Assembly (NCBI GenBank): GCA_026706635.1
Contig: JAPOYJ010000040.1
Location: forward strand, 1-42,893
Length of the DNA stretch: 42,893 nucleotides
Direction of reading: 5' to 3'
Source of the DNA: Gemmatimonadota bacterium
GTDB taxonomy: Bacteria > Gemmatimonadota > Gemmatimonadetes > Longimicrobiales > Gaopeijiaceae
A program made the translations under genes and the position numbers. Below, piece by piece: positions 11,650-32,656 of the stretch. Every line of letters begins with the position of its first letter. Within the stretch, counting starts at the first letter, position 1. A model generated the notes under the pieces. The model worked only from the letters and a program-made list of their open reading frames with translations. It was not told the DNA's origin and ran no database searches.

Positions 11650-11682
11650 CTACAGATTACACTTTGTCAACTACAGTTTACG
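11644..11682. promoter_or_regulatory. Paired dyads at the ABC operon start (site D)
   Basis: TGTCA-N8-TTACA (11644-11661) and TGTCA-N8-TTACG (11665-11682) with a 3-bp gap have the same layout as sites A, B and C, with one or two changed arms. Both cores contain CTACAG. The start codon of the ATPase (11647-11649) is inside the first dyad, so a bound protein would block transcription or translation start. Minus-strand TTGACA also lies here. Confidence 0.6.
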
Positions 11683-11996: not shown

Positions 11997-12647
11997 TCAC
12001 CCCTCAGCACGCAGCATCCCGTTCTTCAGCGCGAAGCGCACGATGTCGCGCCGGTTGCTAAGCCCGAGCTTGGTCTTGGCCCGACCGATGTAGCCCTCGA
12101 CGGTCTTCGGACTGAGGAACATCTTCTCGGCTGCCTCGGAGGCCGAATACCCCTGCGCGTACAACTCGATCACCGTACGCTCGCGGGAGGATAGCACTTC
12201 GGGCCCTGGGTCGTGGCTCTGCGAGGCTCCTTCCCTCTTCAGGCGCGCCACCAGAGCAGCCGCGCGGCGCGGCAGATAGGAGTGGCCGCGCATGATCGCC
12301 TCGACGGCTCCCACGAGATCGGTGTCGGCCACGGACTTGTTCAGAAAGCCAGCCGCTCCTGCTTCCATTGCCGGCAACAGGAAGTCATCCTCGTCGTGGA
12401 CCGTGAGGACCAGAATCTTCGTTTCGAGACCCAGCTCGGTGATGCGCCGGGTCGCCTGGACTCCGTTCATTCCGGGCATCGCCAGGTCCATGATGACGAT
12501 GTCCGGTTCCAGCCTCCGGGCCTTGTTCACCGCCTCCTCACCCGACGATGCCTCGCCCACGACATCTACCCGACCGGTGGACTCCAGCAATGCTCTCAGA
12601 CCGGCGCGCACGACCTGGTGGTCGTCAGCGAGCAGCACCCTCACCAT
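11997..12647 (-). CDS. NarL/FixJ-type response regulator
   Basis: 216 residues. The receiver has Asp8-Asp9, the phospho-acceptor Asp54 in IVIMDLAMPG, Thr82 and Lys104, all intact. A LuxR-type helix-turn-helix follows (LSSRERTVIELYAQGYSASEAAEKMFLSPKTVEGYIGRA, residues about 150-190, quoted across the helix). It should be a DNA-binding regulator switched on by the adjacent kinase. Its ATG overlaps the kinase end by 7 bases, so kinase and regulator are co-translated. Targets are unknown. Confidence 0.92.
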   Translation of the reverse strand: MVRVLLADDHQVVRAGLRALLESTGRVDVVGEASSGEEAVNKARRLEPDIVIMDLAMPGMNGVQATRRITELGLETKILVLTVHDEDDFLLPAMEAGAAGFLNKSVADTDLVGAVEAIMRGHSYLPRRAAALVARLKREGASQSHDPGPEVLSSRERTVIELYAQGYSASEAAEKMFLSPKTVEGYIGRAKTKLGLSNRRDIVRFALKNGMLRAEG

Positions 12648-13696
12648 TGTTCGCCGTCCGGCCTCACCATCGGCACGGTGGCCTGAACCGTGGTTCCCTT
12701 GCCCGGAGAGGTGAGCACGGTGAGGCTGCCACCGACCAACTCCGCCCTCTCACGCATCGCGGTGAGGCCGATGTTGTCACCGTCGGGTGCCGCTCCAGAA
12801 TTGGCCAACTCGAACCCGCACCCCTCGTCTCGGATCTCCGCAACGATCATCCGGTCGGCCGACCTGATTGTCACGGCGGCCTCCCTCACCCCCGCGTGCG
12901 TCGCTGCGTTGGTCACGGCCTCCTGCACGATCCGGTACACGGCCAAGACGGTGACAGGATCTAGCTCGTCGGCCACCCAGTCAAGCCTGACGGTGGCGTG
13001 GATCGTGACTCCATGCACCTGCCGGGCATCACGAAACAGCGTGGCGAGGGCGGAAACAAGCCCCTGCTGGTCGAGTTTCGGAGGCCGCAGCCCCCGAATC
13101 AACCGCTTCACCCCCCGGATCGCGTCAAGGATCTGGCTGGCGATCACACCCCACGCCCGTTCTCTCTCCTCCCGGTCCATCTCGTCTACCAGGAGCTTCC
13201 CCCTGATCTTGAGCGCCACGAGGAACTGAAGAAACTCGTCGTGCAACTCGCGGGAAATGTGCTTCCGCTCATTCTCGGCAGCGATCGCCTTCATTCGGGA
13301 CAACCACTGCACGCGCTTCAACCCGGTGATGTCGCGGATCGTGCAGATCACGTGTTCCGGCCCCGATGCCAGCTTGCCGGGGCTCAGGCTGATCTCCACA
13401 GGGAAGGCTGTGCCGTCCTTGCGCAAGGCCTGCAAATCGAGTCCCCGCCCCATCGGCCGAGGGCTCGGCGCCTCGGCGTAGCGCAGACGGTGTCGCTCGT
13501 GGAGCCCACGGTTGGCGGTGGGTACGAGCATCTCCACCTGGGAGCCCTCCATCTCTTCGCGGGTCCATCCGAACATCGCAAGAGCCTGAGGGTTGAGATC
13601 CCGGATCACTCCCTCGGAGTCCACGACCAACATCGCGTCGGGCGACGCCTCGAACACGGCTCGGTAGTCCCTGTCGCAGAGCAACGGCTGCTCCAT
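12641..13696 (-). CDS. PAS-domain sensor histidine kinase (HisKA_3 type)
   Basis: 351 residues from ATG 13696, the start that best matches the paralogue at 15309-16325; ATG 13720 and a GTG further upstream are alternatives, and none has a strong ribosome site. PAS domain at about 10-125 (YRAVFEASPDAMLVVD, CTIRDITG). Phospho-acceptor His152 in SRELHDEFLQ, a HisKA_3 box. Then ATPase motifs YRIVQEAVTNAATHAG, EIRDEGCGFE and SPGKGTTVQATVP. No membrane segment, so a cytoplasmic sensor. It is the cognate partner of the overlapping NarL-type regulator. Site B lies about 260 bp upstream. Confidence 0.88.
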   Translation of the reverse strand: MEQPLLCDRDYRAVFEASPDAMLVVDSEGVIRDLNPQALAMFGWTREEMEGSQVEMLVPTANRGLHERHRLRYAEAPSPRPMGRGLDLQALRKDGTAFPVEISLSPGKLASGPEHVICTIRDITGLKRVQWLSRMKAIAAENERKHISRELHDEFLQFLVALKIRGKLLVDEMDREERERAWGVIASQILDAIRGVKRLIRGLRPPKLDQQGLVSALATLFRDARQVHGVTIHATVRLDWVADELDPVTVLAVYRIVQEAVTNAATHAGVREAAVTIRSADRMIVAEIRDEGCGFELANSGAAPDGDNIGLTAMRERAELVGGSLTVLTSPGKGTTVQATVPMVRPDGEQW

Positions 13697-13955
13697 CCCG
13701 TCGTTGGCACGAATCGACATCACGCGGTCGCCGCAGCCTTCCGGTACCGGGCGATCCTCATTCACGAGAAGCGCTCCGCCGGACGAAGTCAACGGGCATC
13801 CCATCGCTGGGACGCCCACCGGCGTCCGGAAAGGTCAGTGTTCCAGACGCTCCGCTGCGCCGCGAGCGGCCCGAGCAACAACTCTCAAGGGGATCTGGGG
13901 TAGTGTCGGTTTTTGACGGACAGGCGGTCCTTACGCCCCCCTGCGGTACGGGCAC

Positions 13956-13994
13956 TGTAAACTACAGTTTACATATTGTAAGGTATACATTACA
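13956..13994. promoter_or_regulatory. Paired TGTAA-N8-TTACA dyads (site B)
   Basis: Perfect arms at 13956-13973 (TGTAAACTACAGTTTACA) and 13977-13994, 3-bp gap, 21-bp period. It lies upstream of the first kinase gene, about 260 bp from its start, and directly abuts a CTAG palindrome fragment. Confidence 0.65.
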
Positions 13995-14562
13995 ACGCAG
14001 CGCCGCTCGAATGCCCTGGGAGCCTTGTCCACGGAGGGATCCTCTGGACGAAGGTCGGCAGCTCCATCTCGCACGGTCCGCTGGCGTTGATCGGCGACCC
14101 TCGGCTCCCGCCGAGCGATGGAGGCACTACACCCCTCCCCGACGGCCTCGACGGGCTGCTGTCCGGGGCCGAACCCGACGTCTCGGGAGCGGGGGACGCA
14201 TCCGCCCTGGGGCGGTTCCGCACGCTGAGCCTTGGCGCAGGACCATGCGTCGACGCCGGATGCGCCCCCACAACGACCGGCGAGCGCCCCCCCACCGCCT
14301 CGTGCCGCACACCAGTCGGCTTCTCCCCGTCCCCGCCAGTTCCGGGTTCGGCTCGCTCCCCGCGCCTGCGGGCAGAGAGCGCCGCGACGCGGGCGGAGAG
14401 CGACGCCTCTTTCAGGTGCGCATCCAGGAGGACACCCGGCGCGCCGTGAATCGGGATGTTGTCCAGGAGCGGCGACTGGACCGCCTCGCTGGCGGCGAAA
14501 AGGGCGCGGTCCCCGCCCCGACCGATCCCGGTGCCGAAGACCCAGGTGCGCTTGTTCCTCAT
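13990..14562 (-). pseudogene. ORF starting with an FtsZ-like fragment
   Basis: The ORF opens at ATG 14562 behind a strong ribosome site (AAGGAGGA). Residues about 8-46 match the core just after the FtsZ T7 region: FGTGIGRGGDRALFAA, SEAVQSPLLDN and HGAPGVLL, compared with the family pattern GxGxxxGExRAxxAA..SPLL..GAxGVL. After residue 46 (14425) the similarity stops and the ORF runs on as low-complexity Pro/Ser/Arg sequence, ending in a CTAG palindrome. The FtsZ GTP-binding domain and T7 loop are absent, so it cannot be a working FtsZ. It is either a captured gene fragment or a decayed gene; the intact 5' signals come from a repeated module. Confidence 0.6.
13994..14035 (+). repeat. CTAG palindrome element, right-half fragment
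   Basis: CGCAGCGCCGCTCGAATGCC then CTGGGAG and TTGTCCACGGAG match the right half of the complete copy. It forms the end of the FtsZ-like ORF on the other strand. Confidence 0.75.
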
Positions 14563-15125
14563 TTTCGACTTCCTCCTTGAGAATGGGTTGGACCTTGCCG
14601 TGTATCTCAATACTGGCACCGCTTTCCGGCGCTCCTAGCGGGAAAACCCGGTGGTCTTGACGGGGAACCCCTTGCTTCGTCGCGACGGGAGATTCCTGTC
14701 ACCGAGTGCTGGCGGCGGCGTCCAGACATGCCCAAAGGGGGCAATCATCGATCGTTGACACTCGAGACGCGGGGGTTTGCCCGCCATCCGCAGACATGGA
14801 TTTCCCCTACAAATTGCCGGGTTTTCCCTCGCCGACACGCTCACACGCCTTGTCGATATTGGAGTCAGGCTGGGACACTCGGCTCCGGCTGCGGGACCAT
14901 TCGAAACTACGGAGGAGAGTCATGAAACGATGGACTCACCTGCTTTCCAGTATGGCCATCGCGGCCGCGGTGGCCCACTACGGGATTGCCGTGGCCGTCC
15001 GTCGCGACCAACGAACCGCGCCCGACGGATGGAAGCCACACGACGGCCCGAGAAGCGCTGGTCCACGGTTGCCACACCGGGCCGGACGATCAACTGAGCG
15101 CACGAATGTCAGTGTGGCTCCACAC
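14546..15125. repeat. ~560-bp repeated module, copy 1 (contiguous)
   Basis: By eye this matches 23605-23780 plus 24376-24750. Shared parts, left to right: start codon and ribosome site of a leftward ORF (cctcat... ctccttgagaatggg), a hairpin-rich stretch with GGGAAAACC and TTGACGGGGAA, GGCGGCGGCGTCC, then GGGGGTTTGCCCGCCATCC, GATTTCCCCTACAAATTGCC, and a rightward small ORF. Several short hairpins of the type GGG-AAAA-CCC and GCGGG-CAAAC-CCCGC are kept. The part of the module before 14562 reads as a 5' leader for leftward genes. Confidence 0.8.
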
Positions 15126-15206
15126 CGCGACGTACCGCTGGACTCAGGCGCAGTAGGGGCGAAGGAAAAGACGCTCGATCGACTCCGGCGGAGTGGCGCG
15201 ATCTGA
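14922..15206 (+). CDS. Small secreted-type ORF of repeated module, copy 1
   Basis: 94 residues from ATG 14922, with GGAGGAGAG seven bases upstream. The N-terminus looks like a signal peptide (MKRWTHLLSSMAIAAAVAH). Its first ~65 residues align with the ORF at 24553-24756, but many changes alter amino acids, so protein-level selection is not evident. Function unknown; it may be a chance ORF in a mobile or duplicated module. Confidence 0.35.
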   Translation: MKRWTHLLSSMAIAAAVAHYGIAVAVRRDQRTAPDGWKPHDGPRSAGPRLPHRAGRSTERTNVSVAPHRDVPLDSGAVGAKEKTLDRLRRSGAI

Positions 15207-15272
15207 GGCACGGTAGCTCCCTCCGGTCCGTCGACGCCCATGCTCCCGCTGGTTTCAACTGCCGGGGATGGG

Positions 15273-15323
15273 CGTAGGAGGATAGCACTCGGGGCCCTGG
15301 ATCGTGGATCAGCGAGGCTCCTT
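15273..15323 (-). pseudogene. Remnant of a NarL-type response-regulator gene
   Basis: About 43 of 49 positions match 12183-12233, the linker region of the intact regulator (GASQSHDPGPEVLSS). It lies exactly where the regulator partner of the second kinase should be, on the same strand. The last codons of that kinase (KEPR-stop) are read from this remnant. A deletion that removed the receiver domain and most of the output domain explains this. Confidence 0.7.
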
Positions 15324-16325
15324 CGATTCCGCACCCGCTACGGGCACGGTGGCTCGAATCGTGGTGCCCTTCCCCGGTGCCGTAGCGATAGCGATGCGGC
15401 CTCCGATCATAGCCGCCCGTTCGCGCATGCTGTTCAGGCCGAAGTGCCTGTCAAACACGAAACCGCAGCCTTCGTCGCGGATCTCGGCAACGACGACCCC
15501 GCCTTCCGACCTGGCCGTCACGGTGGCGTCGCTGACCCCGGCGTGCCTGGCGGCGTTGTTCACGGCCTCCTGGATGATCCTGTACAGCGCCAAGGTGGCG
15601 ACCGAATCCAAGTGGTCGTCGACCTGGTCGAGTTTCGCGTGGATCTTGAAGCCGTACACCTCCCGCAAATCGCGAAACTGGGAGGCGAGCGCGAAAGCCA
15701 GACCGTGCTGTTCGAGCTCAGAGGGGTGCAGTCCCCTTATCATCCGCTTCACCCCCTGGATCGCCGCGTGGATCTCCCTGGCGATATGTACCCGCGCACG
15801 CCCTCTCTCCTCCTCGTCGGGCTCCTCCGCGAGGAGCTTCACCCGGATCTTCAGCGCCACCAGTGACTGGAGGTACTCGTCGTGCAGCTCGCGGGACAGG
15901 CTCTTCCGTTCGTTCTCGGCCGCCGCCACCATGGTCCTGGACACCTGCCGCATCTGCTTCCACCCTGTAATGTCGCGAACCGCGCAAATGACATGTCCCG
16001 GTCCCGATCCCAGTGTCGCGCGACTGAGACTTACCTCGACCGGCAGGCTAGTGCCGTCCTTGCACAGAGCCAACAGCTCCAGTGCCTGTCCCATTGGCGA
16101 TGGAGGCGGCGAGTTGACGTAGTCTTCTCGGTACTTCCGGTGACGGTTCCGGCTGGCCATGGGCACTAGGCGTTCCACCGAGGAGCCCTCCAGCTCTTCA
16201 CGGCTCCATCCGAACATCGCGACGGCCCGCGGGTTCAGGTCCCGGATCACTCCTTCCCAATCCACGACGAGCATCGCCTCGGGTGATGCCTCGAAGACGG
16301 CTCTGTAGTCCCTGTCGGTGAGCAC
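15309..16325 (-). CDS. PAS-domain sensor histidine kinase, orphan paralogue
   Basis: 338 residues from GTG 16325, chosen because AAAGGAG stands five bases before it. Same architecture as the kinase at 12641-13696: PAS (YRAVFEASPEAMLVVD), phospho-acceptor His148 in SRELHDEYLQ, ATPase motifs YRIIQEAVNNAARHAG, EIRDEGCGFV and APGKGTTIRATVP. All catalytic motifs are intact. No complete response regulator follows; only a ~50-bp remnant of one is present. It may act on the neighbouring NarL regulator or be losing function. No membrane segments, so cytoplasmic. Confidence 0.88.
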   Translation of the reverse strand: MLTDRDYRAVFEASPEAMLVVDWEGVIRDLNPRAVAMFGWSREELEGSSVERLVPMASRNRHRKYREDYVNSPPPSPMGQALELLALCKDGTSLPVEVSLSRATLGSGPGHVICAVRDITGWKQMRQVSRTMVAAAENERKSLSRELHDEYLQSLVALKIRVKLLAEEPDEEERGRARVHIAREIHAAIQGVKRMIRGLHPSELEQHGLAFALASQFRDLREVYGFKIHAKLDQVDDHLDSVATLALYRIIQEAVNNAARHAGVSDATVTARSEGGVVVAEIRDEGCGFVFDRHFGLNSMRERAAMIGGRIAIATAPGKGTTIRATVPVAGAESKEPR

Positions 16326-16884
16326 GCAAACTCCTTTCGCGCTGTCAGGCCGACGGCCGGCAGTTACCTCGATTCCCGCATCGAATAGCAACACGCGCAC
16401 CGGTGGATGGTGCACCGCCGGACATTGCCATGTCAACCCCCCCATATTCACCAACGCAGGGCGGACAGGGGGCGGCAGGAGGATCGCGAAGCGCGAGAGG
16501 AGAGTGGACCATTTCGCCTGCATCCGCCTCCACCTTCCGCTCGCGCCTTCGGCTACCAGATCATGCCCAGTGCGCCGCGCCGGGGCGCATGACGGGAACC
16601 GGCTGGCTCCTCGGGCGGCTCCCCGAGCGGGTGCTCGGCACGTCGGCCCGCCGGATCACGATCACCACTGGAGAGGCCTCGTCGTAATGGCACGCGCTCG
16701 TGCGCGGGCCCGCGCATCCATATGGCAGCTGCGCGGCCATCGCGCCACCCACCGCGAGGCGGAACGGCCCCGCCCTCCAACTCCCCACCCAAGAAGCCGC
16801 CCCCGGCCGGGCCAACCCGACCGGGGGCGCTCACACCTTCAGGAAACTCGCGAACTACGTCGCCGCGAGACCCCTTCCGGAAGA
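16326..16884. other. Intergenic region without a supported gene
   Basis: Holds the ribosome site of the orphan kinase and, at 16799-16828, a hairpin that may end the giant gene. ORFs here are short, Arg/Pro/Gly-rich in several frames and lack ribosome sites. Confidence 0.5.
16799..16828 (-). terminator. Possible hairpin after the giant lipoprotein gene
   Basis: GCCCCCGG and CCGGGGGC form an 8-bp stem about 55 bp past the stop codon. The U-tract is poor, so intrinsic termination is uncertain. Confidence 0.35.
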
Positions 16885-19800
16885 CTACTTCTCGGTGTCC
16901 AGCACGGTGAATCTGATCGCGTACTCCACCTCATCGTCTCCGATGAAGTGCCCGTTGTCGTTGATGTCGTCCTGCTCCATCGCAATGAACGTCACTTCAT
17001 ACTCGCCGGCATTCGCCGCATCCGGCGGAGTGACATTGACATTCAGAGAGTACGTGGTCTGGTCCAACGAAACAGTGGCTCCTCCGGTGCCGTCGTTGAA
17101 CAGGCAGGTCCACTCCTTCGGACAACCGAGAGCCAGATCCAGGGAATCGAAGACCACGGCGTTGTCGAGTATTGTCCGGGCCTGGTCATCCACAGCATCG
17201 CGTCTCCACAAAACCACTCTCGTGGCGTACGCTCGTCCGGGAACGACGTTGGCCGCTTGCGTCTGTACTACAAGCCTATGATCCGTATTGTCAAGCCAGT
17301 TGACGGCGATGTCCGGATAGTCAACCTCGTCGTATCCGCCGCCGCTGGCATCCACCGCAATGTCAAAGTCGTTTCCATCCACGTCGCCAAAGACGTTGAA
17401 GACGGCTCCAGTATTCCAACTGGCCGCGTCGATATCCAGCGACGACAGGTCAGCGTCTCCACCACTTGTCGGTGCGATAACCAGATTCACAACAGCAGTG
17501 GGCTCGGTACTCAGCGTTGTGACCACCGGTGACCGGTAATTCTCGCCGTTGATGTCAGCCTCGACACCCTCGATTGCCGAAATCTCCGTCGGACCCACGA
17601 ACTGCTTGATGTCGTTGTCCACGAACGTCACAGCGATCGTCCCACTGCCCGCGTGACCAACGTCGCCCCCACTCGCCGTAATGGTGAAGGTGCTATCTTC
17701 GTTTTCGCCGTCGTCGTCTTCGGCATGGACCAGATCATATGCCTTCGTGTCGTGATCGGTACTGGTGAAGGTCCACGAACTGTCTCTAAAGACAACGGTA
17801 ACATCGTTGCCGGTGGTAGGATCGGCCCAGAGCGACACGCCCAGCTTCACTGCGTCGCCGCCCTCCTTCACCTCAACCGCATCGATCAGCTCGCCGTCCT
17901 CGTCTGTCACCTTGACGCGGTCGGTAGTCCGGAAAATGTCGATCGTGTACGTGGCAGTGCTGTCCCCCGCCTCCGCCGTCCCGGTGACAGAGAAGGTGCT
18001 CGTATGTCCGGCGGCTCTCAGCTGCACCCAGCCGATATCGCCCGACACCTCCGCGCGACTGTCGACCTCGGCGGCGATTTCGATCGAGTCACGATCCCAG
18101 CCGACGGTCATCTCGTAGCTGCTGCCGTCGGGATCGCCAGCCTCGAATCCCGGCACGGTGTCGCCGTCGACCGTCAGGTTCTTCAGCGTTGCGAGGACCG
18201 GGACGATGTCGGTGACCTTGAAGATGGTCTCGCGCTCGTACTCCCCCTGGTCCCGTTGACCGTCGTCGCGCTCCTGATAGAACACATACAGGGTCTCGAG
18301 ATAGTACGTGGCGTCGATCTCCTCACCCTCCCCATGCGGGTCGCCGGAATACGAGTAGCTGGCGGAATCCAGCCCGTACCTCTCTGTCTGGGTGCTTTTC
18401 AGGGTGTATACCCCGTCGTTCACCTCGTCCCACTCGAAGTCCTTATCCGTGGCAATGGAGGATTCGACGTTCGCGGTCGGGCTGACGCCCTCCAGCGTGA
18501 CGGTCATAGCCTCTTCGAGCTCCTCGTCCTCCTCGTACGGGCGCCCCGTGTAGGTGCGCGGCCAGAACGCGCCAGTCACCTGGTTGTTCGTCCACTGGTA
18601 CCCGTGTGTGACGCATTCGTCGTGCCCATTGTCAGGTGTGATGTCGCCGGAAGACTCGCCGCACAACCACATCTCCGGGTGGCCGCCGCCATCCGCACCG
18701 AAGGTGTTGAAGACGCCGTCGGCGTTTCTGACTCCGCGCGTCAGACCGATGCCGAAGGCGTCGATCTCCTTTGGACCCGCGTAGTGGCTCTTGTCCGTGC
18801 CGATGTCCGTAAGATTGATCTCGAGCTCGGTGTCGGTCGGGATCCTCGGGAAGCGCACCAACCAGTCGTTCACCCACTCGGCTGCGTCGTCGGCACCTAC
18901 GTCCTCAGTATCCGGGTCACCGTCGTGATCCCACTCGAATGTCGCGTAGCGACCAGCCCCGTCCGGGGATCTGAACGTCCAGCTCACGTCGTCCTCAAGG
19001 TGATCGCCGACCGGACGATGGTCCAGGGGCACATCGCCGCCGACCCAGCTGTCCGTAAAGCCGGGCCGCCCGTCCACCTCGCGGTAGAAGCCGAAGTAGA
19101 GCGACTGCGTGGTCCAATTGATCGAGATCGCACCAATGTCGGCGACCGCAGCGTCGGGCAGATCGAGCCCGGTGTGCGTGTACGACAGCGTCCCGCTGCT
19201 CTCCCACTCCTCCCCTGTTGCGTCGGGCTGGCCCTCTGCGTCTAGGACTACCGTGTACTCTCTCGGAATCTCAGCGACGGGGATGGAAGCTTCGCCTGTC
19301 GTGGCGGAGCCGTTTCTGCCAGCCGCCACGCTGACCGCCGCCGCACCGCCGATCACGGTTGCCTTCCATCCTGCCAGAGGCTTCCCGCCGACCTCCCTGT
19401 CGGCGCTCATCACGCTCCACCGGAAGTGCGAAGCGGTGTTGACAAGCCCGATCGTCTTCGTCGCGTCAGTGGTCCGCTCGGTGAACTCGAAGACCGCTTC
19501 GAAGCGCCCGGTGGGATCGAGGATCAGCAGATCGTCGTGGTAGTCGGATCTGTCGGGGTCGACCTCCACGATGACCACGCCATCGGTCGGCGTGCCCGGC
19601 CCGCCGGGGCCGTAGTCGTTCGCCCGGGCGAAGGTCACCGCCGCGGTGCCGCTGGCCGCAGTCGTGCCGCTACCGAGCGCATCGCGGCCTTCGCGGGCCG
19701 CCGCAAGGTTCGGATAGACCTGGTAGGCCACTCCCTCCACGCCGGTGGTCGTAGTGACGGTCCCGTTGGCCATGACCGCACCGATGTTGATCGTCTGCTT

Positions 19801-22800
19801 GGTGATCTCGTACGGAAGGTCCACCGTCTCCTCGGAGGTGCCGGTCAGCTCGACGCTCACCCCGGCGGAGTCGCCCGCGAAGCCGTATCCGGCGTTGTAC
19901 AGGTCGCCGTTGCTGGCCGTGTCGTGCCTCAGGGTGTACGTCCCGGCCTTGAGGTCCGTGAACTCGTAGCTCCCTTCGGCCGTGGCGCTCGCGTGCCAGG
20001 CACCGCCGCCCTCGTCCTCCAGGATCAGCTTGGCCATGGTCGCGGCCGCGCCCGCGAAGACGGGCTCGCCGTCGCCCCGGTCGCCGTTCTTGTCGACCTC
20101 GTCCAGGAAGAGCGTGCCGCTGATGGAGGCATCGCGGACGTGCTCGCCGCTGAAGTCGACGATCTCTGCCTCGTCGGAATCCCGGCCGTCGACGGTCACC
20201 TCAGTCACCTCGAAGACGTACCTGTCCGCATCGGGGTTGGCGATCGAAACCGTGTAGTCGCCCTTGCGCAGGCCGTCGAAGATGTACTTGCCGTCGCCGT
20301 CGGTCACCGCGCTGCCCTCGTCATCTCCCGAGAGCATCACCGTAACGCCCTCGAGGGGGTGGCCCTCGACGTGCACCTGGCCGCTGATGCTGCGCAGCAT
20401 CGAACCGGCGAAGGAGACATCGTCCTGCTCCTGACCAACCGCGACTCTGATTTCGCGCTCCGTGGTCTGGAAGTCGTACACCTTCTCGTCGGGGTTGGCG
20501 ATCGAAATCGTGTAGTCGCCCTTGCGCAGGCCGTCGAAGGCGTACTTGCCGTCGGCGTCGGTCACCGTCGCGTTGTCGTCCGGCGCATGCTCGCCCTCGA
20601 TCACGACCTCGACGTCGACGACGGGATCGCCGTCCGCCGTCACCTCGCCGCCGATCACCGCGGTCCTGACGATCGCGCCAACGAAGTTGATCGTCGCCGT
20701 ATCGTCGGTGGCGACGTACCCGCTCCACGCCACGAACTCCTGGCCAGCCAACGGGATCTTCGGGAAGTCGTACTCGTCGTCGTGCCCCGTGATCAGCACG
20801 GCGTACGTGTCGTCGAGAAGGCCGCCGAAGGTGAACTCGCCGTTGTCGTCCGTGATCTGGGTGCCGCCCATGACCGGCACGATCTTGGTCGGGGTGGCCA
20901 CCCTAAAGAGACTCGCATTCGCGCCGGCGATCATCTCGCCCTCGGCCGTTACCGAGCCCGTGATGACCACGGTGCGGAGCGACCGGCCCGCAAAGTACTC
21001 GGTCCTGCGCTCGCCTGGCATCAACGTGACGTCCACGCTCTCCGGCGCGTACTCGTACCCTTCCGGGTCGAAGCCGCTGAGCTCGAGGGTGTAGTCTCCA
21101 GCCGCGAGGCCAGGGAAGTCGTACTGGCCGTCGGCGTTCGTCTCCATCTCGGCGTCGTGCGCACCGCTCAGGGCGATGGTGATGTTGTCGGCGGGATCGC
21201 CGTCCAACGTGACGCGGCCGCTGATGCTGGCAGTGCGGAGCGGAATGCCGTGTTCGAAGAGGACCTCGGCCATCTCGCGCAGTTCGACCCTTATCGACCG
21301 TTCGGCCGGGTCGAACTCGAACCCCCTCTCGTATCCGGAGATGGCAACCGTGTAGTCGCCAGCGTGGAGACGATCGAGCGAGAACGCGCCCGCGGCGTCG
21401 GTGAGCGCGGTGACCGTCTCGTCGGCCCTGCCGCCCGATACCGTCACCGTAACGTCGGCAAGCGGCTCGCCTTCGGCGGCCACGGTGCCGTAGATCCCGA
21501 CCGTGCGGAGCTTGACGCCCGGGAAGTCGACCTCGGCCACCTCGCCCAGTTCGACCATGATCGTCTGCGACGGCGAGTCGAATTCGTATTCGTCGGCGTC
21601 GAAGCCGGAGACGGTGATGGTGTATTCGCCCGCGTGGAGACGATCAAGCGAGTACGTGCCCTCGGCGTCGGTGAGCGCAGCGAGCGTCTCGTCGGCCCTG
21701 CCGCCCGATATGGTCACTGTGACGCCGCCGAGCGCCTCGCCTTCGGCGGCTACGGTACCGAAGATCTCGACCGTGCGGAGCTTGGCGCCCGCGAAGTCGA
21801 CGTTGGCCATCTCGCCCAGTTCGACCGAAATCGACCGCGACGCCGCCTCGAATTCGTACTCCTCGGTGTCGAAGCCGGAGATGGCGACCATATAGTCTCC
21901 CGCGTGCAGCCGATCGAGCGAGTACGCGCCCGCGGCGTCGGTGAGCGCGGTGACCACCTCGTCGGCCCTGCCGCCCGATACCGTCACGGTGGCGCCGGCG
22001 AGCGGTTCGCCGTCGGTGGTTACGGTACCCATGATCTCGACCGTGCGGAGCACTATGCCGTCGAAGCCGATGTCAGCCGTCTCGCGCAGTCCGACCGAAA
22101 TCGACTGCGACGCCAGCTCGAACTCGTATTCGTCGGTGTCGAAGCCGGAGATGGCGACCGTGTAGTCGCCCGCGTGGAGATGATCGGCCGAGTACGCGCC
22201 CTCCACGTCGGTGATCGCGGTGACCACCTCGTCGGCCCTGCCGCCCGATATCGTCACGGTGACGCTGGCGAGCGGGTCGCCCTCGATGCTGACCTGGCCC
22301 GAGATCGCGGCCGTGCGCAGCTCGATGCCGTCGAAGTCGACCGTGGCGGTCTCCCTGAGCGCGACCGTCACGCTGGCGGAGGTCTCGCCGAAGCCGTACT
22401 CGTCGGTGTCGTACCCCGAAATGCCGACCGAGTAGCTGCCCGCGTGCAGACGGGTGAATGCCCACTGGCCAGCCGCGTCGGTGACCACCGACAGATCCGC
22501 GCCCTCGCCGGTCAGGCTGACGGTGACGCCCTCAAGGCCGGTGCCCTCGATCGTTACCGCGCCGCTGACTGCCGCCGTGCGAAGCGCGATTCCGTCGAAG
22601 GGCACGTCCGCTGTCTCGGCGCGGGCGACCGTAACGTTCCGCGAGGTCACCGCGAAGCCGTACTCGTCGGTGTCGTAGCCCGAAATTGCGATCGCGTAGT
22701 CGCCCTTCCGGAGCTCCGTGAAGCTGAACTGGCCGCCGCTGTTGGTCCCGACCTCGAGGTCGCGGTCCACGCCCTGGAGGCTGACCGTGACGCCCGCGAG

Positions 22801-23445
22801 TCCCTCGCCGTCTACGGTCACCTGGCCCATGACGGCCGAGGTGCGCAGATAGCTCCCCTGGAAGTCGAGCTCCTCAGTCTCGCCGACCGCGACCTCGGCG
22901 ACCGCGGAGGTGGCGGGGAAGCCGATGTCATCGTCATCGAAGCCCGATATCTCGACGGTGTGGATGCCCGCCCGGAGGCCAGGGAAGCTGTAGGCCCCGA
23001 TGGCGCTCGTCGTCGTCTCGGCTTCGGACATCCCCGTGAGCTTCACGATCACTCCCTCGAGCCCGGCCCCCTCCACCGTCACCTCACCGTCAATGGACGA
23101 GGTGCGGATCCAGGAGCCGGTGAAGTTGACCGTCACCTTCTGGCCGTCGTTCGCAATCGTCGCGGACTGGTCGGTCTCATCGAAGCTCCCGTCCTCCGCA
23201 AAGCCGCTGATCGTGACGGTGTAGGTCCCGGCCTCGACGTCCGCGAAGCTGAAGGAACCCGTGCTGGTAGTGGTGGCGGTGGCGCCGGTGTTGAGCTTCA
23301 CCGTGACGCCGGCCTGCTGCTCGCCCTCGATCACCACCTGCCCGCCGATCGACCCCAAGGCCAGGGGGGGAGTCGGATCTCCGCAGGCGTTGACCAGAGG
23401 GACCGCCAGCAAAGCGGCGGCCGCCAGTAGCTTGATTCTGTTCAT
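16885..23445 (-). CDS. Giant surface lipoprotein with carboxypeptidase-regulatory-like repeats
   Basis: 2186 residues from ATG 23445, giving a lipoprotein signal ending LVNACGD. About the first 1200 residues are tandem ~90-residue beta-sandwich units of the CarboxypepD_reg/prealbumin-like type, each with a core like GEPLAGVTVTVSGG, T-DAxGxYSxDxLHAGDY and VAISGFDTDEYEF. An SdrD-B-like unit (GTLFLDEVDKNGDRGDGEP) follows, then divergent beta domains, and near the C-terminus a Calx-beta/cadherin-like domain (VEVKEGGDAVKLGVSL, TIAVTFVDND). No enzyme motif is seen. The likely role is a long stalk or adhesin on the cell surface. An in-frame upstream ATG at 23610 with a better ribosome site could extend the protein by 55 residues but would bury the signal peptide. 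Confidence 0.85.
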   Translation of the reverse strand: MNRIKLLAAAALLAVPLVNACGDPTPPLALGSIGGQVVIEGEQQAGVTVKLNTGATATTTSTGSFSFADVEAGTYTVTISGFAEDGSFDETDQSATIANDGQKVTVNFTGSWIRTSSIDGEVTVEGAGLEGVIVKLTGMSEAETTTSAIGAYSFPGLRAGIHTVEISGFDDDDIGFPATSAVAEVAVGETEELDFQGSYLRTSAVMGQVTVDGEGLAGVTVSLQGVDRDLEVGTNSGGQFSFTELRKGDYAIAISGYDTDEYGFAVTSRNVTVARAETADVPFDGIALRTAAVSGAVTIEGTGLEGVTVSLTGEGADLSVVTDAAGQWAFTRLHAGSYSVGISGYDTDEYGFGETSASVTVALRETATVDFDGIELRTAAISGQVSIEGDPLASVTVTISGGRADEVVTAITDVEGAYSADHLHAGDYTVAISGFDTDEYEFELASQSISVGLRETADIGFDGIVLRTVEIMGTVTTDGEPLAGATVTVSGGRADEVVTALTDAAGAYSLDRLHAGDYMVAISGFDTEEYEFEAASRSISVELGEMANVDFAGAKLRTVEIFGTVAAEGEALGGVTVTISGGRADETLAALTDAEGTYSLDRLHAGEYTITVSGFDADEYEFDSPSQTIMVELGEVAEVDFPGVKLRTVGIYGTVAAEGEPLADVTVTVSGGRADETVTALTDAAGAFSLDRLHAGDYTVAISGYERGFEFDPAERSIRVELREMAEVLFEHGIPLRTASISGRVTLDGDPADNITIALSGAHDAEMETNADGQYDFPGLAAGDYTLELSGFDPEGYEYAPESVDVTLMPGERRTEYFAGRSLRTVVITGSVTAEGEMIAGANASLFRVATPTKIVPVMGGTQITDDNGEFTFGGLLDDTYAVLITGHDDEYDFPKIPLAGQEFVAWSGYVATDDTATINFVGAIVRTAVIGGEVTADGDPVVDVEVVIEGEHAPDDNATVTDADGKYAFDGLRKGDYTISIANPDEKVYDFQTTEREIRVAVGQEQDDVSFAGSMLRSISGQVHVEGHPLEGVTVMLSGDDEGSAVTDGDGKYIFDGLRKGDYTVSIANPDADRYVFEVTEVTVDGRDSDEAEIVDFSGEHVRDASISGTLFLDEVDKNGDRGDGEPVFAGAAATMAKLILEDEGGGAWHASATAEGSYEFTDLKAGTYTLRHDTASNGDLYNAGYGFAGDSAGVSVELTGTSEETVDLPYEITKQTINIGAVMANGTVTTTTGVEGVAYQVYPNLAAAREGRDALGSGTTAASGTAAVTFARANDYGPGGPGTPTDGVVIVEVDPDRSDYHDDLLILDPTGRFEAVFEFTERTTDATKTIGLVNTASHFRWSVMSADREVGGKPLAGWKATVIGGAAAVSVAAGRNGSATTGEASIPVAEIPREYTVVLDAEGQPDATGEEWESSGTLSYTHTGLDLPDAAVADIGAISINWTTQSLYFGFYREVDGRPGFTDSWVGGDVPLDHRPVGDHLEDDVSWTFRSPDGAGRYATFEWDHDGDPDTEDVGADDAAEWVNDWLVRFPRIPTDTELEINLTDIGTDKSHYAGPKEIDAFGIGLTRGVRNADGVFNTFGADGGGHPEMWLCGESSGDITPDNGHDECVTHGYQWTNNQVTGAFWPRTYTGRPYEEDEELEEAMTVTLEGVSPTANVESSIATDKDFEWDEVNDGVYTLKSTQTERYGLDSASYSYSGDPHGEGEEIDATYYLETLYVFYQERDDGQRDQGEYERETIFKVTDIVPVLATLKNLTVDGDTVPGFEAGDPDGSSYEMTVGWDRDSIEIAAEVDSRAEVSGDIGWVQLRAAGHTSTFSVTGTAEAGDSTATYTIDIFRTTDRVKVTDEDGELIDAVEVKEGGDAVKLGVSLWADPTTGNDVTVVFRDSSWTFTSTDHDTKAYDLVHAEDDDGENEDSTFTITASGGDVGHAGSGTIAVTFVDNDIKQFVGPTEISAIEGVEADINGENYRSPVVTTLSTEPTAVVNLVIAPTSGGDADLSSLDIDAASWNTGAVFNVFGDVDGNDFDIAVDASGGGYDEVDYPDIAVNWLDNTDHRLVVQTQAANVVPGRAYATRVVLWRRDAVDDQARTILDNAVVFDSLDLALGCPKEWTCLFNDGTGGATVSLDQTTYSLNVNVTPPDAANAGEYEVTFIAMEQDDINDNGHFIGDDEVEYAIRFTVLDTEK
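21232..22320 (-). repeat. 270-bp tandem units in the giant lipoprotein gene
   Basis: The marker cCGTGCGgAG recurs at about 21231, 21501, 21771, 22041 and 22311, spaced 270 bp (90 codons). Units are close to identical at DNA level here, and diverge with small length changes on both sides (about 20250-23400). This indicates recent duplication or gene conversion. Confidence 0.85.
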
Positions 23446-23610
23446 CGTCTTCCGTTCCTCATGTGGGATGGGGGAATTTTCGCTGCCCCGGCTTTCCAGC
23501 CGGCCTCGTGCCGGAGGATCCGCAGGCAGTGAGAGTTTCTGGTGAGCGTCTCCCGGGAGGACCGCACGCGCGGTCGCCCGAGAGACGATGCTCTTGGGGT
23601 TGTCCCTCAT
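23446..23610 (-). other. Upstream reading frame or leader peptide before the giant gene
   Basis: Opens at ATG 23610 behind CAAGGAG and reads in frame into the giant gene (MRDNPKSIVSRATARAV...). Start codon, ribosome site and first codons (MRDN) match the module copy before the FtsZ-like ORF (MRNK). It could be an N-terminal extension, a leader peptide, or a leftover of the module insertion. Confidence 0.4.
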
Positions 23611-23780
23611 TTCGGTTTCTCCTTGAGAATGGGTTTGGAACTTGCTGCGTATTTCAATATTGGTGCCGCTTTCCGGTGCTCCTACCGGGAAAACCTGGTG
23701 TTTTTGACGGGGAATCCCCGGCCTCGTCGCGAAGGGAGTTTCCTGTTGCCGAGTGTTGGCGGCGGCGTCCGGCGGGGCAA
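23605..23780. repeat. Repeated module, copy 2, left block
   Basis: Matches 14550-14736: ribosome site and start, hairpin TTTCCGGT-GCTCCT-ACCGGGAAA, TTGACGGGGAA, GTTGGCGGCGGCGTCC. It is the 5' region of the giant lipoprotein gene. Confidence 0.8.
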
Positions 23781-24375
23781 ATGCCGTACGGAGCGCCCTG
23801 GAACTCTATCGACACGGCACTTCACCCTTCGCAGTGGGGGGTTGGGTAGCGGAACCTGCACGCCTACTACAGGCGGAAGCGCGAAGGTTCCACGGGCTTC
23901 CCAGTGGGGGTGGGAACGCGGCCTACGTCATCCTCTTCGCAATCCGCTTCGCGATTCTGCCCGCGTGGAGCACTCGAACGCAGCCCACGACGACGGTGGG
24001 GATCTGGAGCGTGCGGTGGGGATCTGGAGCGTGCGGAACCTGCCGTCTGGGTCCCGCTCGCGTGGGTGCCAGCCTTCTCGGTGGGGGCTCATCGGCCCGT
24101 CCACGATGGCTCTCGCAGTCGGTCTGGTCGTCGGACTGGACCGGTCCTCGGTCTCCGGCTACTGGGACCTGACCCGGGAGACGTTCGTTGTGGCCGTCCT
24201 GCTCACCCTGGGATTCTTCCCCGCTAGGCCGGCTGACAGAACGACTCAGGCGCCAGGGAGACGGGCAGTACCAGGATCAGCGTGTAGAGGAGAACTAGCC
24301 CGAACTTCAGCCACCGCCGGTGTCCACCTGATCCTCTCGGCAGGCCGGGTAGTCGTGGTGTTCGCGGCGGCGATG
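23781..24375. other. ~600-bp mosaic insertion between the two blocks of module copy 2
   Basis: Absent from copy 1. It contains a perfect 20-bp tandem duplication (23995-24014 and 24015-24034) and hydrophobic ORF pieces on both strands: plus near 24105 (VGLVVGLDRSS, FVVAVLLTLGFF) and minus near 24224-24330 (LKFGLVLLYTLILVLPVSL). These look like fragments of membrane-protein genes. No complete gene is supported. Confidence 0.45.
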
Positions 24376-24750
24376 ACGTCGATCGTTGATACGCGAGGTG
24401 CGGGGGTTTGCCCGCCATCCGCAGACATGGATTTCCCCTACAAATTGCCGGGTTTTTCCTCGCAGAAACGCTCACACGCCTTGTCGATGTTGGAGTCAGA
24501 CTGAAACAACCGGCTCCGGCTGCGGGACCATTCGAGACTGCGGAAAAGAGTGATGAAGCAATGGACTCACCTGCTTTCCGGCGTGGCCATCGCGGCCACG
24601 ATGGTCCACTGCGCCGCCACCGTGGCCGTCTGTCGCGACCAACGAGCCGCGCCCGAAGGATGTAGGTCACACGACGACCCGGGAAGCACCGGTCCACGGT
24701 TGCCCCACCGGGCCATACGACCATCTGGACGCGCGGATGTCAGTGTGGAG
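24376..24750. repeat. Repeated module, copy 2, right block
   Basis: Matches 14748-15122 over about 370 bp: GATCGTTGA, GGGGGTTTGCCCGCCATCC, GATTTCCCCTACAAATTGCC, CGGCTCCGGCTGCGGGACC, the small rightward ORF and GGTCCACGGTTGCC. Divergence is roughly one in five bases by eye. Confidence 0.8.
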
Positions 24751-31076: not shown

Positions 31077-31648
31077 GCAGGTGGTGCGAACTCCGATGCG
31101 TCCACGTTGACCGAATGGCCGCACATCATACCCGTGACCGGCCCCGTCAGCCCATCAGCCGGGTTGAGGGACCCGGTCGCGTCGACATCGACGTCAACCG
31201 CGCACTTCCCCTCCTTCTCTGGGAGCGACCAATCCAGGCTCCCGTCCAGCGCCATATCGATCAAGACCGAGGTTTCCTCGGAGGCCACCGTGCCCACTTG
31301 GTCCACGCTCCCCCCCGCGATCTCGAAGGACGAGCCTCTGCTGGTGAACTTGCACATGCTGGCCGTCATCTTCACGTCGAACATGATCCCCGACACCGGG
31401 TCGCCGCTTGCCGTCCCGGCATAGGCGAGCGTGCCTCCATCGGGACAATCGATGGTTGTGTTGAGATTGCCCACACTTGACGGCAGCAGTCGCCCAACAT
31501 TCCCTAGCGCTGACAGCAGCGCCATAGCTTCCGCCTCGGTGATCGGTTCATCGTCGCCACAGCCCACGGCGGCGGCTATGGGCAGCGACAGGGCGGCGAC
31601 GGCGGATCGGACGGCACCTCGACGGGTGCTGCGGCGTTGCATCGGCAT
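31073..31648 (-). CDS. Lipoprotein paralogue A
   Basis: 191 residues from ATG 31648, with AAGGA seven bases upstream. Signal ending IAAAVGC, lipobox cysteine, then an acidic beta-rich domain with conserved Cys (DCPDGGTL, TASMCKFTSRGS, GKCAVDVDVDATGSL, TGMMCGHSVNVD). Strongly similar to the gene at 31966-32535, so a tandem duplicate. The family is unknown to me; four Cys could form two disulfides in the periplasm. Its stop codon is inside a repeat element. Confidence 0.75.
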   Translation of the reverse strand: MPMQRRSTRRGAVRSAVAALSLPIAAAVGCGDDEPITEAEAMALLSALGNVGRLLPSSVGNLNTTIDCPDGGTLAYAGTASGDPVSGIMFDVKMTASMCKFTSRGSSFEIAGGSVDQVGTVASEETSVLIDMALDGSLDWSLPEKEGKCAVDVDVDATGSLNPADGLTGPVTGMMCGHSVNVDASEFAPPA

Positions 31649-31696
31649 GGTTCTGTCCTTCAGATCTCTAGCAGAATCCAGAACGAAAGTGAACAG

Positions 31697-31965: not shown

Positions 31966-32535
31966 TCAGTTGAACTCCGATACGTCCACGTTGACCTCAT
32001 GGCCGCACATCATGCCCGTGACCGGCCCCGTCAGCTCATCATCCGGGTCTAGGGACCCGGTAGCGTCGACATCGACGTCAACCGCGCACACCCCCTCCTT
32101 CTCCGGGAGCAACCATTCCAGGCTCCCGTCCAGCGCGAGATCGAGCGAAAGCGAGGTCTGCCCGAATTGCAGCGTGCCCTTTTGGTCCACGCTCCCCCCC
32201 GCGATCTCGAAGGACGAGCCTCTGCTGGTGAATTTGCACATGCTGGCCGTCATCTTCATGTCGAATGTGATATCCGACGGTGGGTTGCCGCTTACCGTCC
32301 CGGCATAGTCGAGCGTGCCTCCACCCGGACAATTGACGGTGTCGTTGGGGTCGGTCAGATTTGACGGTGCCAGCTGCCCAACATCTCCTAGCGCTGCCAA
32401 CAGCGCCAGAGCTTCCGCCGCGGTGATAGGTTCGGGATCGCCGCCACAGCCCACGGCGACGGCGACGGGCAGAGACAGGGCGGCGATGGCGAATCGGGCG
32501 GCGCCCCGACGGGCGCTACTGCGTTGCATCGGCAT
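31966..32535 (-). CDS. Lipoprotein paralogue B
   Basis: 189 residues from ATG 32535 with CAAGGA six bases upstream. Signal ending VAVAVGC; same domain and Cys pattern as paralogue A (NCPGGGTL, TASMCKFTSRGS, GVCAVDVDVDATGSL, TGMMCGHEVNVD). Differences cluster in the middle (QFGQTSLSLDLALD against ASEETSVLIDMALD). The genes lie head to tail with two palindrome elements between them. Function unknown. Confidence 0.75.
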   Translation of the reverse strand: MPMQRSSARRGAARFAIAALSLPVAVAVGCGGDPEPITAAEALALLAALGDVGQLAPSNLTDPNDTVNCPGGGTLDYAGTVSGNPPSDITFDMKMTASMCKFTSRGSSFEIAGGSVDQKGTLQFGQTSLSLDLALDGSLEWLLPEKEGVCAVDVDVDATGSLDPDDELTGPVTGMMCGHEVNVDVSEFN

Positions 32536-32656
32536 GTTGCATCCTTGAGATTCCAGGTGGTACGTCCCACGCGGGCACGACTGGTGTCGAGTGGCGCGAG
32601 AACCCCCGCGGCAGGGGTAGCTTCCCTCCAGAGGGAGGGCCGCTCCGCGGCCTAAT

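Follow-up and report, generated by a model that had tools for sequence, protein, structure and literature searches.

In E. coli, the HisKA_3 kinases NarX and NarQ, which carry the HDxxxQ motif, act on the NarL-type regulators NarL and NarP, and two kinases serve one regulator.

Cross-phosphorylation between paralogous two-component pairs has been described for ChrSA and HrrSA of Corynebacterium glutamicum (PMC9491836). In PMC3040137, kinases from lineage-specific expansions are reported to be orphans more often, and pairs in which one partner has become a pseudogene are reported as well. For the orphan kinase K2 described here, the loss of a partner is clear and in itself fairly ordinary, and the unusual twist is that the scrap of regulator sequence directly behind it matches the regulator of the neighbouring pair.

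The locus and the genomes compared

The host is a sponge-symbiont-type Gemmatimonadota bacterium with a genome of 2.81 Mb in 86 contigs that is 96% complete. The group that includes Candidatus Palauibacter has been described in PMC10469786, and the largest genomes there are those found in sponges. The window, i.e. the whole stretch of DNA that was analysed, comprises 42,893 nucleotides. The features that matter for the argument are the following:

15309-16523, minus strand: K2, orphan sensor kinase, PAS - HisKA_3 - HATPase_c, 404-aa ORF (Pfam)
12641-13819, minus strand: K1, paralogous kinase, PAS - HisKA_3 - HATPase_c, intact and paired with RR1 (Pfam)
11997-12647, minus strand: RR1, intact NarL/GerE-type response regulator, Response_reg + GerE (Pfam)
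12186-12233, minus strand: linker segment of RR1 matched by the scrap (local alignment, BLAST)
15277-15324, minus strand: regulator-linker scrap, RR codons 139-154, 43/48 ungapped to RR1
15323-15325: junction A, where K2-type kinase homology ends and the RR linker begins (K2/G003:C124 alignment)
15274-15277: junction B, where the sequence shared with the leader region P1-P3 in G007:C1 ends and the scrap begins (alignment with L092)
14744-15274, plus strand: P1 small-ORF leader region abutting the scrap, 74% to G007:C1
13944-14540, minus strand: ftsZ C-terminal pseudogene fragment and 3' flank between K1 and P1, 79-89% to the ftsZ-like locus G000:C15:60039-60851

The start of RR1 overlaps the end of K1. 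Homologues of K2 were gathered from 59 related genomes, 20 extra stretches and a named genome collection that covered Gemmatimonadota, Candidatus Palauibacter included.

Upstream of K1, an 18-bp palindrome, TGTAAACTACAGTTTACA, lies at 13956-13973, and a variant in tandem form is found at 11665-11682 upstream of an ABC transporter gene (11649, minus strand). With up to two mismatches, the palindrome has 34 forward and 30 reverse matches in the genome and the reversed control has 0, and it looks like a putative large operator family. A BlaI-type repressor was considered as its owner and rejected, as only two PF03965 genes were found and nothing links them to it. The window also contains internal DNA repeats of 79-85% identity (338-1621; 31088-31665 and 31972-32551).

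A regulator-linker scrap between two junctions

The best local alignment between the 3' region of K2 and RR1 pairs 15277-15324 with 12186-12233 over 48 columns without any gap, and the 43 identical positions fall into exact runs of 13, 9, 6, 2 and 13 bases. Of the 48 bases of the scrap, 16 form the 3' end of the K2 ORF (15309-15324, with the stop) and 32 lie past the stop. In the minus-strand regulator frame it reads EGASLIHDPGPRVLSS, and codons 139-154 of RR1 read EGASQSHDPGPEVLSS; K2 reads the scrap in a frame other than that of the regulator and ends with ...AESKEPR and the stop. In a BLAST search of the whole genome, the match has an E-value of 9e-12. When 200-base segments drawn at random from the window were aligned with the regulator gene, the highest score was 17.5, vs 35.5 for the match, and with random 116-base segments it was 24 vs 40. 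A preliminary description of this DNA had claimed that the end of K2 and the following 35 bp match the linker of RR1, and had proposed a pairwise alignment as a check. In this alignment, the match stands far above random segments of the window and extends 32 bases past the stop, near the 35 bp claimed, but the outer limits of 15266 and 12183 that had been given were slightly too wide. The observation of a regulator-linker match beside K2 is thus confirmed. A third copy was not detected by BLAST in the whole genome, nor was any match found in the 22 other genomes of the genus, which rules out a dispersed repeat.

On the kinase side, the alignment of K2 with its homologue at G003:C124 runs to ...CGGAATCGA-AGG at about 15323, and the linker match starts at 15324. 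Past the scrap, homology to G007:C1 (L092) covers 14744-15274; at this limit, L092 instead continues into the small ORF P3. With the kinase homology ending at about 15323 and the leader homology at 15274, the scrap is bounded by two breaks, and it keeps the orientation and frame of a regulator directly behind K2. HTH or receiver traces gave no match around the scrap, and the flank past 15274 is P1 leader sequence. A short A/G-rich similarity at junction A, shared by the linker and the sequence just 5' of the regulator start in G003:C124 (AAGGAG), could have mediated the deletion.

The ftsZ fragment between K1 and P1 has its counterpart on contig C15, where the ORF reads as a full FtsZ-like protein, and the P1 leader at 14744-15274 is 86% identical to a second copy at 24379-24748 over 370 nt (whole duplicate 14552-15117 vs 23600-24748, 84-86%). 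The ftsZ fragment and the second copy of the P1 leader indicate that partial copies and deletions are common in this region. The P1 duplicate comprises the leader of a large surface-type gene together with the small ORF P1 (MKRWTHLL..., MKQWTHLL...); the large gene (16885-23610, minus strand) encodes a 2241-aa ORF with many carboxypeptidase-regulatory-like and SdrD-B-like repeats that are 68-74% alike in DNA. The P1 copy at 24 kb is followed by the small ORF P3, which recurs beside kinase-regulator pairs of the family in relatives. Pfam searches gave no match for P1 and P3.

Partner loss at K2

The kinase tree makes K2 the sister of the kinase at G003:C124 (support 0.99), with G007:C132 next and K1 in another clade. 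A full regulator is located directly downstream of the kinase in all five nearest K2 homologues (G003:C124, G007:C132, G017:C10, L101 and L105), and K2 itself has no intact regulator gene adjacent to it. On the basis of these five paired homologues, the loss of an adjacent NarL-type regulator by K2 is well supported. The claim that K2 descends from a kinase-regulator pair is therefore supported, and so are the claims that the regulator is gone and that K2 now runs on into part of a regulator linker. We also looked for relatives whose kinase ends in the same way without a regulator and found none among the five nearest homologues. The 48-nt scrap is a sequence trace of a regulator at this site, and with its RR1-type identity it may or may not stem from the native one. 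No closer strain that carries K2 was found in the named genome collection, and no strain with K2 and an RR1-like regulator among the relatives compared.

K1 and K2 share 71% DNA identity, and 52% at shared four-fold sites. A recent duplication of the whole pair is ruled out by this kinase identity and by the trees, in which K1 and K2 are not each other's closest relatives. Judged from their different clades, the two kinases are old paralogues, and the split between them is older than the genus members compared.

State of K2 and its predicted partner

The K2 ORF has neither internal stops nor frameshifts and contains a PAS domain, HisKA_3 (PF07730, E 7e-10) and HATPase_c (PF02518, E 1.2e-11), and its H-box SRELHDEYLQ retains the phospho-acceptor His and the HDxxxQ motif. 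K2 is thus indeed intact, as had been stated at the outset. Homology to relatives begins near residue 55-66 of the 404-aa ORF, and both K1 and K2 remain far below equivalog cut-offs. Because the PAS sensor, the phospho-acceptor His, the HDxxxQ motif and the ATPase domain were all kept, K2 most likely still signals.

Irrespective of where the scrap came from, K2 could also be a decaying gene with no function left, a reading that we consider unlikely but that several data would favour. K2 has 44 amino-acid changes vs 12 in G003:C124, and it departs from nearly invariant family positions 11 times, compared to 3 times for K1 and 12 times for the broken copy on contig C37, and this would fit a kinase that is sliding toward decay. 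In addition, the genome is smaller than those of its genus mates (2.8 Mb vs mostly 4-4.9 Mb), and a third pair of the family on C37 is broken. However, stops and frameshifts are absent and the catalytic motifs are kept, and the pairwise dN/dS of K2 and G003:C124 is about 0.11, a value that averages two branches at a dS near saturation. The ratio of unique amino-acid changes to unique synonymous changes is 44:44 in K2, which resembles K1 (30:35) and not the broken C37 copy (58:26). As K1 is also evolving fast, part of the speed of K2 is genome-wide. We read K2 as a kinase that is retained, though loosened.

As to the present partner, RR1 is the only intact regulator of the family with more than 50% identity in this genome; the regulators on C20 and C79 reach 45-46%, and that on C37 is truncated. 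The helix-1 residues of the receiver are nearly identical in K1-type and K2-type regulators. Signalling through RR1 is the most likely function predicted for K2, a plausible assignment for which we see the chances as evenly balanced.

Origin of the scrap

When the linkers of the family were compared in a codon-anchored alignment, RR1 agreed with the scrap at 43 of 48 positions (90%), the next best linker of the genus (G002:C95) at 34 of 45, and the linkers of K2-type regulators at 23-27 of 45 (51-60%; L101 24/45, L105 23/45, the others 25-27/45). From this difference it follows that the scrap derives from RR1-type sequence. Nearly all relatives resemble RR1 more closely than they resemble the scrap, which identifies the scrap as a drifted copy of such sequence. 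Of the five bases at which scrap and RR1 differ, four lie in codons with a changed amino acid, among them codon 150, which specifies Arg in the scrap and an acidic residue in the relatives compared, as expected for a drifting copy.

A co-inherited, unselected scrap should not exceed selected kinases in likeness. As the scrap is more alike (90%) than the kinases (71%), the RR1-type sequence must have reached the slot beside K2 later, within the lineage, and an extra step that placed it there is thus needed. The trees of the two partners are also in strong conflict. Each data set rejects the topology of the other: delta lnL is 99.5 (AU p 2e-5) for the kinase topology on the regulator data and 422 (AU p 1e-5) for the regulator topology on the kinase data, in tests that used a short regulator alignment, anchored columns and one model. 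Regulators thus appear to be exchanged or converted between the pairs of this kinase-regulator family, and it is because of this conflict that we prefer an account in which RR1 first converted the K2 regulator and deletion came afterwards. K2 would initially have formed a K2-type pair with a regulator of its own. The regulator slot beside it would then have been filled by RR1-type sequence, either by gene conversion or by an exchange with the nearby K1-RR1 pair. Two-sided deletions would thereafter have taken the receiver domain and the HTH, with 16 linker codons remaining, and one of these deletions would have fused the 3' end of K2 to the linker, so that K2 acquired a different C-terminal tail and stop codon. 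From then on, K2 would phosphorylate and dephosphorylate RR1, with two kinases acting on one regulator. For this account as a whole, including the retention of K2 and its signalling via RR1, we see about equal grounds for acceptance and doubt. The order of events is our inference, and that conversion preceded deletion we hold with slightly less confidence still. A repair patch copied from RR1 would leave an identical scrap.

Such a templated repair is the main rival. The native K2-type regulator would have been deleted and the break healed with 48 bases from RR1, some 3 kb away, and the scrap would then never have belonged to a gene beside K2. This could account for the high identity to RR1 together with the sharp ends, and further partial copies are present in this gap, namely the ftsZ C-terminus and the P1 leader. 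We nevertheless regard it as rather unlikely, since the orientation and the family of the scrap exactly match the missing gene and since a similar linker-only scrap is found at G011:C108. Even less probable is a segmental duplication in which a larger RR1 block was copied and then mostly deleted after K2 had lost its own regulator. While a second partial block, the P1 leader, has diverged to a similar extent as the scrap, P1 and scrap are oppositely oriented, whereas relatives such as G007:C104 have P1-P3-K-RR on the same strand, and several nested deletions would be required. The single duplication of the preliminary description, which would have produced K1-RR1 and K2-RR2 at once and would make the scrap the unconverted linker of the co-born RR2, agrees with the paralogy of the kinases and with the regulators of K2-type relatives. 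It is largely refuted by the identities, i.e. 90% of the scrap to RR1 vs 71% between the kinases and 51-60% to K2-type linkers, and by a kinase split that antedates the genus members compared, and thus has very little left in its favour. Chance is ruled out by the E-value and by scores far above random segments, and although the source assembly is fragmented, the longest exact shared run computed is only 13 bases, so that usual assembly k-mers are unlikely to have joined the copies and an artefact can for practical purposes be dismissed.

Recurrence in the genus

The family comprises about 45 loci in the genus. Four other kinases with an intact core lack an intact adjacent regulator (G011:C87, G011:C108, G003:C27 and G003:C113), and as the latter two are sisters, at least three further regulator losses are to be counted. 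The regulator of G011:C87 stops near codon 35. The linker scrap after the stop of G011:C108 covers RR codons about 134-156 and scores 33 vs a null maximum of 26. The converse, a broken kinase with an intact regulator, is also found, e.g. at G003:C147 and G014:C173. In the genome of K2 itself, the third family pair is the decayed one on C37 (G000:C37:14745-16339, L034), with a stop in the kinase and a regulator that is cut after the receiver. As a bold and on present data improbable generalization, family pairs might repeatedly swap regulator sequence and then lose superfluous regulators through deletions with an endpoint in the linker, and several kinases would come to share few regulators. 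If true, separate pairs would have a recurring natural path to many-to-one signalling, and each step along it would be marked by a scrap.

Comparison with known systems

K2 is a well-marked example of the way in which a kinase is orphaned, as the junctions, the scrap and the relatives with both partners can all be seen. If K2 drives RR1, a two-component pair would have been merged with its neighbour instead of being lost. The family would moreover offer a good natural series in which one can ask which partner, kinase or regulator, usually goes first, and how well paralogues are insulated from each other.

Like NarX and NarQ, K1 and K2 are HisKA_3 kinases with an HDxxxQ motif that belong to a system with a NarL-type regulator, but NarX and NarQ are membrane nitrate sensors, and K1 and K2 have a PAS sensor. 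In case of ChrSA and HrrSA, there are likewise two paralogous pairs per cell, and the kinase of one pair can act on the regulator of the other; these systems have, however, retained both regulators, and their cross-talk is measured, whereas that of K2 with RR1 is inferred. With the orphans treated in PMC3040137, K2 shares that it is a kinase of an expanded family without an adjacent regulator, and it differs from them in that the loss has been caught with a scrap of regulator sequence still in place, a scrap that is of the type of the neighbouring pair.
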